Below are positions 1 through 25,174 of a stretch of 39,536 nt of DNA, piece by piece (positions within the stretch are counted from its first letter, which is position 1; the number at the start of each line of letters is the position of its first letter). Source of the DNA: Campylobacteraceae bacterium (GTDB taxonomy: Bacteria; Campylobacterota; Campylobacteria; Campylobacterales; Sulfurovaceae). The stretch spans positions 1 through 39,536 of the forward strand of contig JAMOOP010000093.1 of NCBI GenBank assembly GCA_027065385.1. The letters run 5' to 3'. The notes beneath the pieces are model-generated. The model made no database searches, was not told the origin of the DNA, and worked only from the letters and a program-made list of their open reading frames with translations. Made by a program: the position numbers and the translations under genes.

Positions 1-33
1 TTTTTATATTGGATACTTTGTAGTATAATTTCT

Positions 34-82
34 ATGATTCTTAGTTGTGTGAGCATACATTCTAAGAATCATCTTTTTCTTT
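34..82 (+). terminator. Rho-independent terminator of an upstream plus-strand gene
   Basis: An 11-bp perfect inverted repeat (ATGATTCTTAG at 34-44, CTAAGAATCAT at 62-72) encloses a 17-nt loop and is followed directly by a T-rich tract (73-82). The T-tract lies on the plus-strand side only, so it should end a transcript entering from the left of the window. The gene it serves is not visible. Confidence 0.7.
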
Positions 83-122
83 AAACTATTCTTAATCCTT
101 TATATTTTTTGTCTAAAGTGTA

Positions 123-541
123 GATATAATATCAATCCACCATATATATAGCAATTTCAGGCTGGTGGTCACTAAAAAGTTTTTAGTGAAATTCAAAAAA
201 ATATCGAAAATCCTTGATATGCATGATAAAAAATCATATTGAGCGATAATACAGCAGTAGTTGTTAGTTTTACTTATGTATTTTTATAAGTTTAGCAATA
301 ATAATTTATGAAAATAACTAAAATAGTAGAATTCATGTATTAAATAACAATTACCTTAAGCCACAATAGTTTGGCTACGACACCTTAACTGCCAATTCCT
401 ATAAAGGAAAGTTATTTTATTGGTTTAATAATAGCTAGTGAGGCGAAACCAAAGTAGATGGAAGATTATTGTATCATAGATTAAAAACCATTTTTGATAT
501 TTTTGTGGTTTCTATGATTTTCCATTGAAAAAGATACTATT
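123..541 (+). mobile_element. 419-bp non-coding repeat, copy 1 (putative IS200/IS605-derived non-autonomous element)
   Basis: This stretch is repeated in inverted orientation at 23886-24304. The two are exactly the same length and I find only three differences (222/24205, 444/23983, 462/23965). Identity stops abruptly at both ends. It encodes no protein of useful size; the longest start-to-stop I noticed is an 11-codon ORF near 308. Near the left end lie two hairpins: CCACCA...TGGTGG, then the near-perfect palindrome TCACTAAAAA/TTTTTAGTGA. The right end carries a module also found downstream of the tnpB remnant at 23339-23447. Subterminal hairpins, absence of terminal inverted repeats, and a shared right end with a tnpB element fit a PATE/MITE derived from the IS200/IS605 group. 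Exact ends are inferred from where the two copies diverge. Confidence 0.7.
427..541 (+). ncRNA. Putative omega-RNA-like structured module at the right end of repeat copy 1
   Basis: The module reads: helix A (AATAAT 427-432 with ATTATT 465-470), a core GTGAGGCGAAAC (438-449), helix B outer stem (ATCATAGA 473-480 with TCTATGAT 511-518, 8 bp perfect), an inner stem AACCA/TGGTT (486-490/506-510), then a tail from 519 ending near 536. The core, the base of helix B and the tail recur after the tnpB remnant on the other side of the window, while the inner part of helix B differs. In TnpB systems the guide RNA scaffold is encoded at the 3' end of tnpB through the element's right end, and the guide follows immediately; this segment holds that position. 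Expression and function are inference. Confidence 0.45.
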
Positions 542-780
542 CTATATTTACCACTCATTTCTAAAATGGCTCCTTTAGCACTCTTAAGAGATATATCTAA
601 AGATTTCACACTCTTTTGGAGTGTTGCCAAATTTTGCTTTTGCTACACCATTAATAAACGGTATAAATATATTAATACATCTACTAAAAAATGATATTTA
701 AAGTAAAAAGATGATAAATAATCATAAAGATATTAGTTATAAACAAATATAATTTAAAAAAATAAAAAAGGATAAAAATT
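542..780. other. Intergenic leader between repeat copy 1 and the YceI-like gene, with a possible broken ORF
   Basis: No intact gene is seen. On the minus strand an open frame runs from about 655 down through 542 and continues into the repeat, ending near 483; the part outside the repeat includes KSAKGAILEMSGKYRI. It may be the truncated end of a gene into which the element inserted, but I do not recognise the family. The last 40 bases carry the promoter and ribosome site of the next gene. Confidence 0.35.
748..772 (+). promoter_or_regulatory. -10 box and Shine-Dalgarno of the YceI-like gene
   Basis: A perfect TATAAT lies at 748-753, about 27 bases before the start codon, and AAGGA at 768-772 is the ribosome site. 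No clear -35 box is seen, which is common in Campylobacterota sigma-70 promoters. Confidence 0.45.
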
Positions 781-23170: not shown

Positions 23171-23338
23171 ATCTAATCCTAAAAATTTTTAGGAGATTAT
23201 AGCAAAAATAACAAGAAAGATGTATTTAAGCTTTTTGTTAAAGAAATATTATAATAGAATTTAAACCCATTATCAATAAGTTCAAAATTTAATTTTTAAT
23301 ATGCCCTACATTTCCTACTCTAAAATATCCCATCATAA
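23171..23338. other. Intergenic stretch left of the mobile scrapyard
   Basis: Upstream region of mog. The minus strand can be read as a short MGYFRVGNVGHIKN peptide next to the element end, but this is too short to assign. No gene or RNA seen. Confidence 0.3.
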
Positions 23339-23447
23339 TATCTTTTTCAATGGAAAATCATAGAAAACAGGATTTTTAACCCTATTTATGATTTTTCCAT
23401 ATCCCAAGTTTCACCTCACCTAAAAATCCTAACTATTTTTTAGAAAA
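23339..23447 (-). ncRNA. Right end of a degenerate IS200/IS605 element with omega-RNA-like module (copy 3)
   Basis: It follows the tnpB stop on the minus strand. It shares with the right end of the 419-bp repeats the core GTGAGGTGAAAC (23419-23408), the helix-B base (AATCATA 23393-23387 with TATGATT 23362-23356) and the tail to 23339; 28 contiguous bases (23339-23366) are identical to copy 2. The inner hairpin differs and is only about 3 bp. A second pairing, GATTTTT (minus strand, 23428-23422) with AAAAATC (23396-23390), stands where helix A does in copy 1, though it overlaps helix B. This is where a TnpB guide-RNA scaffold is expected. The assignment is inferred. Confidence 0.5.
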
Positions 23448-23783
23448 TTACCATTTAGATAATTTGACATATAGGAATTTAGCGTTTATATCTGCATTTT
23501 GTTTTTTTCCACAAAATCCACATATAAAAACTTCTTGTGATTTACGATTTTTCTTATCAATATAGTCACACTTACTACAAGTTTGTGGGGTATAAGCTGG
23601 ATTTACTTCTGTTATCTCTATATTATATCTCTCTTTAAGTGATTTAAACTTCTCCTCTATTGCTCTTTTTCCAAAATTGGATAGCATTCTATTTAACTTT
23701 TTTGAGAGTTTTGGAGAGGTAAAATTTAGTCTCTCAACTATAATCTCTTTTGGTTTATTATTTTTAACTATGTTATTAATACT
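23448..23783 (-). pseudogene. tnpB: tnpB C-terminal remnant (IS200/IS605 RNA-guided nuclease)
   Basis: About 112 residues corresponding to the last quarter of a TnpB (full length about 370-420). Visible: IVKNNKPKEIIVERLNF (the strand with the second RuvC acid position, Glu), EVNPAYTPQTCSKCDY with the first CxxC of the zinc ribbon, FICGFCGKKQNADINA with the second CxxC and the last RuvC Asp. The N-terminal two-thirds, including the first RuvC Asp, are gone; an in-frame stop lies just upstream and the sequence changes to an efflux-pump fragment. The first usable ATG would be at 23687. No TnpA transposase is nearby. Not expected to be active. Confidence 0.85.
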
Positions 23784-23886
23784 CTACCAACCTATTCTCA
23801 TTTAGTGTAATCTGATAGTTTCTCTCAAATCCCCCAATAGTAGCCACCTCACTTACCCCATCTATAGCCAAAAGAGCATACTTATA
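23776..23886 (-). pseudogene. Shard of an HME-RND efflux pump gene (CusA/CzcA-like)
   Basis: A 36-codon stretch reads KYALLAIDGVSEVATIGG followed by FERNYQITLNENRLVEY and a stop. It matches the porter-domain GVAEVASVGG...YQV segment of heavy-metal RND pumps (CusA/CzcA; about 1,030 residues). It begins at the boundary of repeat copy 2 and ends where the tnpB remnant starts, with no pump sequence visible on either side. It is a left-over of a pump gene broken by insertions and deletions. Confidence 0.7.
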
Positions 23887-24304
23887 ATAGTATCTTTTTC
23901 AATGGAAAATCATAGAAACCACAAAAATATCAAAAATGGTTTTTAATCTATGATACAATAATCTCCCATCTACTTTGGTTTCACCTCACTAGCTATTATT
24001 AAACCAATAAAATAACTTTCCTTTATAGGAATTGGCAGTTAAGGTGTCGTAGCCAAACTATTGTGGCTTAAGGTAATTGTTATTTAATACATGAATTCTA
24101 CTATTTTAGTTATTTTCATAAATTATTATTGCTAAACTTATAAAAATACATAAGTAAAACTAACAACTACTGCTGTATTATCGCTCAATATGATTTTTTA
24201 TCATACATATCAAGGATTTTCGATATTTTTTTGAATTTCACTAAAAACTTTTTAGTGACCACCAGCCTGAAATTGCTATATATATGGTGGATTGATATTA
24301 TATC
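23886..24304 (-). mobile_element. 419-bp non-coding repeat, copy 2 (inverted relative to copy 1)
   Basis: Reverse complement of 123-541 with three substitutions and no indels. The omega-RNA-like module occupies 23886-24000 on the minus strand (core 23989-23978). Its right end faces the CusA-like shard, and its left end (hairpins at 24242-24290) faces the phosphatase gene. None of the three changes falls in helix A or helix B; the core change makes copy 2 agree with the tnpB-linked module. Near identity of the copies means recent spread or gene conversion. Confidence 0.7.
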
Positions 24305-24616
24305 ACAATTAAAAACACAAGTCAATATTTTGAAATTTTTTTATTATGTAAATATTACTATTTAATAGTATATTTTTCTATAATATCAAATACATATTAA
24401 TGATACTACTTTTTTTCTTAAATGTTTTAATTTGTTATCTCTGTTTCTATTTCAAAAAGTGGGGAAATTTTTGGGTGTTGAAATTTGGATTTTTCGACAT
24501 CCTAATTTGAGACTATCAAAAAAATACCTAAAAATGTTTTTTCGTATCATTTTTATTTTGTTCCCTATGGGATTTGAAACTGAGTTTATTTATAGTAATA
24601 TATGTAAAGATAGATT
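24305..24616. other. Gene-free AT-rich stretch
   Basis: No credible gene. A 75-codon frame on the plus strand from 24432 has no ribosome site, an odd composition and overlaps the phosphatase end. No tRNA, repeat or hairpin of note. Confidence 0.4.
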
Positions 24617-25174
24617 TTACTCTTTCACTTTTTCTAATTTAATTACCTCGTTCACATAATTATTAAAACTTCTATCCATAGCAATAACTTTAGGACGAAT
24701 AGATGGTAGATGACCGTATATAAAACTAAGTTCTTCTCTAGCTTTATCTACACTTTTACCTTTTATGGCATAGATATATAGTGCAGAGGCTAAAGAGGTT
24801 CTATCTGCTCCACCTTCACAATGTATTAATATAGGTTCTTTGGCATCTTTTAATATCTTTACTAATTTTGATGTTTTATTAAAATCTAAATATTTTCTTG
24901 AACTCATTTGATATGTAATAAGGGTTACATTATGCTCTTTTGTAATTCTTTTTTCATCTTTGTACCAAGATTTGTTTTTCTGTTTTCCTCTTAAATTTAA
25001 TACTGTTTTAATATTATACTTCTCTAAATAATAAGGCATATTAAAACTAAAGAGTTGGGCTGAACGGTAGGCGTTATTGTCTAATTTATGAAAATTTCCA
25101 TATATTAATCCATATCCAATATAGATAATTAGCAGTAGTAGAACTATTTTTATAATTTTTTTTAAATATTTCAC
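24617..25174 (-). CDS. Membrane-anchored tyrosine/dual-specificity phosphatase
   Basis: 185 residues. An N-terminal membrane helix (about 5-24) is followed by a Cys-dependent phosphatase domain with the P-loop HCEGGADRTS (Cys119, Arg125) and the upstream TVLNLRG strand typical of DSP/SiwC-like bacterial enzymes. The catalytic domain probably lies in the periplasm if the helix is an uncleaved signal anchor. Substrate unknown; placement next to surface glycan genes on the opposite strand is only suggestive. Confidence 0.8.
   Translation of the reverse strand: MKYLKKIIKIVLLLLIIYIGYGLIYGNFHKLDNNAYRSAQLFSFNMPYYLEKYNIKTVLNLRGKQKNKSWYKDEKRITKEHNVTLITYQMSSRKYLDFNKTSKLVKILKDAKEPILIHCEGGADRTSLASALYIYAIKGKSVDKAREELSFIYGHLPSIRPKVIAMDRSFNNYVNEVIKLEKVKE

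Follow-up and report, generated by a model that had tools for sequence, protein, structure and literature searches.

TnpB is usually regarded as acting on behalf of the element in which it is encoded, and stand-alone HEARO RNAs, the guide RNAs of IscB, are guide units that lack their nuclease gene. Ends-only elements are reportedly touched on in a 2023 Nature paper concerned with TnpB and selfish spread. In the IS607 family, TnpB is RNA-guided, and a fixed base of the flank belongs to the guide-RNA scaffold (PMC10711439). The insertion core of the family is described as GG (PMC10711439, PMC4227781), which is taken here as typical rather than defining. In ISFba1, a pseudoknot joins the apical loop of a 5' flanking motif to scaffold bases near the guide (PMC11061315). 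Derivatives that lack tnpB are already known in related IS families. One PATE-like IS605 ends-only element of Halanaerobium is a short derivative that retains bases of the left end along with the final 58 nt of tnpB and the right end (PMC7290912), and variants of the BcISt1 IStrons in the Bacillus cereus group have IS607-type ends without full ORFs (PMC4227781).

The closest known relatives of the element described here are these IS607 guide RNAs and ends-only derivatives. Like the guide RNAs of ISXfa1 and ISFba1, its predicted RNA has an IS607 transposase in the parent element, a would-be guide in the flank after the right end, and several stem-loops (PMC10711439, PMC11061315), together with a fixed flank base in the scaffold and a candidate pseudoknot next to the guide. 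However, the ISXfa1 RNA (about 150 nt) and the ISFba1 scaffold (187 nt) lie beside tnpB, whereas the element has a predicted stand-alone RNA of about 405 nt with a putative promoter of its own. Moreover, the tnpB-linked version of this RNA overlaps the tnpB frame, unlike that of ISFba1 as described in PMC11061315. The PATE-like derivative belongs to IS200/IS605, is reported as one copy, and is given no guide-RNA reading in the part of its description at hand; the element belongs to IS607, occurs in many copies in several species, and shows covariation. The BcISt1 IStrons carry a group I intron (PMC4227781), but none was found in the element. HEARO likewise provides a guide RNA without a nuclease gene, but its nuclease is IscB and its RNA family is different. 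Rfam 15 scans of the window and the related loci gave no match to RAGATH-18 (the family of the ISFba1 reRNA), to a group I intron, or to any known RNA family for the element. Among the matches listed in a literature search by titles and abstract openings, with most subscription papers outside its reach, no IS607 element consisting of a guide RNA only was found.

The window is the whole stretch of DNA analysed: 39,536 nt, contig JAMOOP010000093.1 of assembly GCA_027065385.1 (Campylobacteraceae bacterium, Sulfurovaceae; genome G000). The initial annotation had described two 419-bp copies, and a sequence beyond a tnpB remnant, as carrying one guide-RNA-like module. That observation stands as a whole, with corrections to the boundaries, the substitutions, and the end of the tail. 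Copies 1 and 2 have the core, outer hairpin, and tail in common; as arms (123-544 and 23883-24304, 422 nt), they are 99% complementary. The tnpB-linked tail (23335-23369) matches at 94% over 35 nt, and core and tail recur across the whole source genome. The 419-bp unit itself was too narrow. Eight other left ends in G000 extend about 100 bp to the left of window base 123, to GTATCATTAATATGTATTTGA in seven cases and to a near variant in contig C83, and the element is therefore 520 bp long. Copy 2 is complete (23887-24406, minus strand), with its left end GTATC at 24406 and its right end GATACTAT at 23887. Copy 1 (123-540, plus strand) is cut short at 123 by the end of a different IS (1-122, plus strand); it has lost about 102 bp on the left and retains the -10 box and the RNA part. 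Sequence identical to this IS end is also present close to one terminus of contigs C9 and C122, and the IS is a repeated one with a hairpin, ATGATTCTTAG/CTAAGAATCAT. The tail of copy 1 ends at 540 rather than at 541.

Five complete copies from two genomes have the same ends: copy 2 and the copy on contig C24 (520 bp each), the copy on contig C155 (519 bp), and two copies in genome G003 (519 bp each). At the tips, GTATC on the left is complementary to GATAC on the right. At least 27 places in G000 match the copy 1 region at E <= 0.1 (40 of 156 first-look candidates scored); genome searches score part of the first-look candidates, so all match counts given here are lower bounds. The element has moved to many sites, as its differing flanks, the TAT at both ends, and an unoccupied site in maf orthologues show, and it shares its left end, right end, and a homologous multi-helix scaffold with an IS607 element that carries tnpA and tnpB.

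That larger relative is found in genome G012 (locus L096), where an IS607 tnpA and a tnpB frame lie between these same two ends. The TnpA matches NF033518 IS607 (E 8.5e-39; 133 bits, cut-off 110). The tnpB frame, of 446 aa and broken near its end, matches guided_TnpB at E 2.3e-21 and 76.5 bits, below the cut-off of 100. The left end of the tnpB-free element, GTATCATTAATATGTATTT (19 nt), is identical in a shortened IS607 on G000 contig C23 and similar in G012; the right end common to the element and the G012 IS607 spans 28-35 nt. In G000, the parent clade is represented by pieces: C23 combines the left end with a shortened tnpA and, at the edge of the contig, codons 1-73 of tnpB; C98, at a contig end, has tnpB from codon 350 through to the right end; and C61 has tnpB codons 326-401. 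The initial annotation had envisaged that these units could act in trans with a TnpB elsewhere. A tnpB with the same right end does exist, in the pieces on C98 and C61 and in the tnpA-tnpB IS607 of G012, but no intact tnpB of the parent clade is among the assembled contigs of the draft G000. The missing middle may reflect collapsed repeats. In a PDB sequence search, the TnpB part on C98 falls near Cas12f and TnpB chains, and the G012 frame does so more weakly.

Within the window, the tnpB remnant (23448-23783, minus strand) encodes the C-terminal RuvC and zinc-ribbon regions followed by an early join to the frame end, the N-terminal part being absent. It matches NF040570 guided_TnpB at E 1.4e-21 and 77 bits, below the cut-off of 100, and is 94% identical to residues 15-119 of the C98 TnpB. 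Its right end (23335-23452, minus strand) is degenerate, reading GATATTAT. Contig C67 carries an internal-deletion derivative with decayed ends, in which the tnpA N-terminus is fused to the 3' part of tnpB. This fusion (locus L119, 1480-2090), which runs straight from the tnpA N-terminus onto the guide-RNA part at the tnpB 3' end, is a second miniaturisation. G000 as a whole has 17 TnpB zinc-ribbon matches (16 above cut-off) and 3 Y1 transposase matches, several at contig starts. The tnpB-linked element on C98 (locus L017, 1-1225) lies beside or inside another TnpB gene, a 182-aa frame. The C98 tnpB frame extends about 85 aa past the zinc ribbon, across much of the folded RNA (L017, 3-605; L096, 3010-3305), so that protein code and RNA structure seem to be superimposed there.

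Right ends in G000 are of two families: those of tnpB-free copies, and several preceded by the 3' end of tnpB. A covariance model, R1, was built from ten tnpB-free copies only, taken from 15 tnpB-free right ends (C20, C66, C90, C34, and the one in genome G027 were left out as short or carrying an indel). R1 recovers the tnpB-linked 3' ends. In G000, it has at least 14 matches at E <= 0.01 (78 of 8738 first-look candidates scored), sorted by us as nine tnpB-free and five tnpB-linked. These five, with one locus in G012 and one in G003, are the tnpB-linked matches at that threshold; all seven, from three genomes, span the full model (1-184). In a lower-stringency search, seven tnpB-linked loci match R1 along its full length at E 5e-8 to 1.9e-6, and weaker or partial matches are added: L069 (E 4e-4), L057 (E 0.47), L066, L061, L056, and, partial only, L021 (E 0.22) and the tnpB remnant of the window (E 0.06, 19 bits). 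An nhmmer sequence profile agrees, with E 1.7e-16 to 3.6e-5 in a small set. The scaffold is homologous between the families from position 357 or earlier, and helix H5 at 210 is also common to both. Homology of the element RNA to the RNA between the tnpB 3' end and the right end is thus well supported.

Among 34 genomes of the genus, R1 finds matches in 5, and a DNA search finds them in 5 of 60 genomes at E <= 1e-5, G000 included in both. The exact right-end pattern occurs at no fewer than 16 loci in genome_contigs (GTDB), every one of them titled as a Sulfurovum or Campylobacteraceae MAG. It has 0 exact matches in viral_contigs, and spread by phage was rejected on that count. The tnpB-free element itself is present in four genomes (G000, G003, G006, and G027), three of which also have tnpB-linked right ends. 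In G006, an 86% complete draft, the element is present with no TnpB match at E <= 1e-10.

What the element carries between its ends is a predicted RNA (137-540, plus strand, in copy 1; 23887-24290, minus strand, in copy 2, matched by R1). Its start is inferred, helix 1 beginning 7 nt past the -10 box. The consensus fold was computed from all seven copies that hold the whole RNA, from three genomes (G000, G003, and G006). It contains 114 pairs, 14 of which are changed on both sides with pairing kept. Of 797 cells, 98.9% are paired, against 35-55% once partners are slid by 1-3 columns. Shuffled alignments yield 10.2 double-changed pairs (3 of 500 reach 14) and 14.0 double-changed cells, against 33 observed (0 of 500 reach this number). 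Further pair types number 34, below the shuffled 36.9. The rows form two groups, G000 on one side and G003 with G006 on the other; independent events are therefore fewer than cells, and most double changes amount to one event each. The 184-nt scaffold alone has 5 double-changed pairs, no excess over shuffles (143 of 500 reach it), and 21 double-changed cells against 9.3 in shuffles (0 of 500). The plus strand folds at -82.1 kcal/mol and the minus strand at -54.1, with double-changed pairs in 14 of 114 and 9 of 99, respectively. The 115 nt first singled out show a modest gain in folding over shuffles (z -1.96), and the 413-nt RNA shows a larger one (z -3.51).

The tnpB-linked 3' ends were folded separately from 7 of 15 right ends; L021, L056, L057, L061, L062, L066, L069, and the window remnant were set aside as cut by contig ends, diverged, or degenerate. 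The helix bases H5, H6, H9, H10, and H13-H14 are the same as in the tnpB-free family, and the inserts differ. In this set, 8 of 93 pairs are double-changed and the covariation term is nearly nil (-0.11). A MAFFT alignment across both families misaligned the core and was unused for counts; helices were instead paired by motif in 13 sequences, including 6 of the 7 tnpB-linked right ends (C67 out), with strands picked by written motifs, a procedure that favours fitting sequences. Between families, H9 pair 3 changes between C-G and U-A, and H10 pair 9 between U-A and C-G. Only 1 of 117 cells of H10 is broken, in the truncated copy 1. Covariation thus is seen in the wider alignment both within and between families, and the conserved RNA fold is well supported.

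The helix comparison also places the landmarks of the initial annotation. Its core, GTGAGGYG, is the 3' strand (437-445, plus strand) of the conserved helix H10, whose 5' strand, CACCTTAaCT, lies at 381-390 (plus strand). Its hairpin (457-526, plus strand) is H13-H15: the outer H13 and H14 are common to the tnpB-linked family, and the inner H15 differs yet pairs in both families, as had been claimed. The three substitutions between the copies were said to avoid helices A and B, two terms left undefined. One of the three is indeed unpaired, but the other two lie in pairs: in copy 1, the C at 444 disrupts an A-U pair within the core helix, and in copy 2 the G at column 337 gives a G-U pair. Covariation in the wider alignment and the existence of tnpB genes with the same right end support the description of the module as a guide-RNA-like unit without tnpB.

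Two further segments of the RNA, the loop ATAGT (366-370, plus strand) and the terminal ACTAT (536-540, plus strand), complement each other and are unchanged in 13 of 13 sequences and in 10 of 10 of the 184-nt set. They form a candidate pseudoknot; it is unproved, since the pair never varies and hence shows no covariation. The TAT of the terminal ACTAT is also the shared insertion core.

That core emerges from the insertion sites. The 13 left ends recognised by a mismatch-tolerant search start GTAT, and the right ends mostly read GATACTAT; the exceptions are the window remnant noted above, C67 (GATCCTAT), and two G003 copies (GGTACTAT). The C155 copy sits in a gene that we take to be maf. At this site, the one compared with orthologues, eight of nine fetched sequences align, and where C155 sits they have no element and read (A/G)TATAT (G in two, A in six). 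At C24, the reading frame is open across the joined site. Taken together, the TAT at both ends, the maf orthologues, and the C24 frame identify TAT, not GG, as the shared core. Since the first base of the left end, G, could belong to the element itself, GTAT as a motif is conjectural. The joined maf frame was considered as a clean empty site and rejected: the orthologues show that maf with the C155 copy (locus L004) has a separate internal deletion in G000, of roughly 100 codons relative to its relatives. The insertion site still aligns.

The five complete copies have no ATG-started ORF of 30 aa. When TTG starts are allowed, C24 has a 46-aa frame beginning at the -35 box, which is absent from the second G003 copy. 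The box belongs to a promoter-like site at element base 82 in all five complete copies. In copy 2 (24297-24325, minus strand) it reads TTGACT, 17 nt, TATAAT, a sigma-70-like match at 11 of 12 consensus bases; the G003 copies have TTAACT/TATAAT and TTGACT/TACAAT in the same place (10 of 12 each). Copy 1 retains the -10 box TATAAT (125-130, plus strand) and has lost the -35 box. An 11 of 12 match is reached by 16 of 300 shuffles, and promoter-like sites as a class show no excess (5 found on locus L003, 5.5 expected). The case for the promoter is one of position: the expected start is the first base of helix 1. This putative promoter, read from sequence, points at an RNA of about 405 nt that would run to the right end.

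Directly beyond the right end, the flank differs between copies, as expected if a guide follows the tail. The initial annotation had proposed just this, with the guide starting at 542; variable flank does follow the tail, but a guide would begin at 541, directly behind the TAT core. Copy 1 would have its guide at 541-560 (plus strand), in flank that varies between copies, and copy 2 at 23867-23886 (minus strand). Guide searches covered these two window copies only. The proposed comparison of the sequences after the tail with other sites was negative: neither has a second match with two or fewer mismatches in G000. The copy 1 guide was rejected as targeting elsewhere, since eight of its nine hits have three mismatches and the ninth is its own site (a reversed control gives four). 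The copy 2 guide was likewise rejected as targeting cusA elsewhere; its flank matches nothing else at E <= 0.1, and for the 20-mer one additional site turned up, at three mismatches. The guides of the window copies therefore point only at their own flanks, which fits a role in retention rather than targeting elsewhere.

The copy 2 guide lies inside a fragment between that copy and the tnpB remnant (23784-23886, minus strand), which resembles a CusA/RND-type pump and has no other match in G000 at E <= 0.1. The left flank of copy 2 is not cusA-like, so a rearrangement probably took place at this fragment of about 100 bp. One G003 copy (locus L054) adjoins a gene whose product resembles, by eye, the phosphatase-like protein beside copy 2 (24617-25174), perhaps by chance or through a shared site.

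These features suggest a general model. IS607 TnpA would move the element in trans through the common ends. The element's own promoter would yield an RNA of about 405 nt that extends past the right end into flanking DNA, and the guide of each copy would thereby match its own target site. TnpB from the larger relative could bind the scaffold in trans. Once the element has left a site, or has met an allele that lacks it, the empty site, where GTAT precedes the guide match, would be cut, and repair from an element-bearing copy would keep the element in place. At the occupied site CTAT stands in that position, a difference that could shield the site. That the element is a non-autonomous IS607-family transposon, with a guide RNA as its only cargo and using TnpA and TnpB in trans, is in our judgment probable. 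We are more tentative about the complete scheme, and would not quite put it at even chances: a guide-RNA-only transposon that parasitises the IS607 recombinase to move and the nuclease to stay, its TAT core doubling in the pseudoknot and GTAT/CTAT serving in self-discrimination.

Several other readings have to be weighed against this model. The element could be a passive deletion derivative that keeps the right end for the transposase alone, its fold being a relic of the parent guide RNA without present use. A transposase needs only short ends, and internal-deletion derivatives arose here more than once, the C67 fusion among them. However, pairing is preserved over some 400 nt distant from the tips between genomes with 79-83% DNA identity, the length is a constant 519-520 bp, and the place of the promoter is fixed; we consider this reading unlikely, while taking it seriously. 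Alternatively, the RNA could be a decoy or regulator: by occupying TnpB it would make the nuclease less active at the sites of the parent, or it would regulate the parent by pairing, with no guided cleavage. Free scaffold would compete for TnpB, and the inner hairpin is unlike that of the parent; but the scaffold ends exactly at the right end and abuts copy-variable flank, as a working guide needs, which makes a decoy distinctly improbable.

Two further proposals change the nature of the fold. Hairpins acting at the DNA level in transposition would account for the complementary tips, but IS607 transposes by way of a circle of double-stranded DNA (PMC10711439), and G-U cells outnumber A-C cells by 79 to 3 on the plus strand, although that is the strand on which the structure was chosen. 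We give this proposal very little credence. Less still attaches to a self-splicing, IStron-like ribozyme that hides the insertion. The Bacillus cereus group variants without full ORFs offer it a precedent, but Rfam scans gave no intron match, with window positions 1-700 searched to E <= 5 and six loci to E <= 1, and the fold is common to tnpB 3' ends. Production of the RNA and its guiding of TnpB in trans, a step put forward here from comparative data, is the most likely reading and is unproved.

If the model is correct, a multi-copy, promoter-bearing, tnpB-free guide RNA has been kept across species, and TnpB would be a nuclease that can be shared or exploited in trans. Guide-only elements then could both spread and persist. 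The two families also provide a natural experiment: the RNA overlaps protein code in the tnpB-linked copies only, so the constraints of the RNA itself can be read in the tnpB-free copies.
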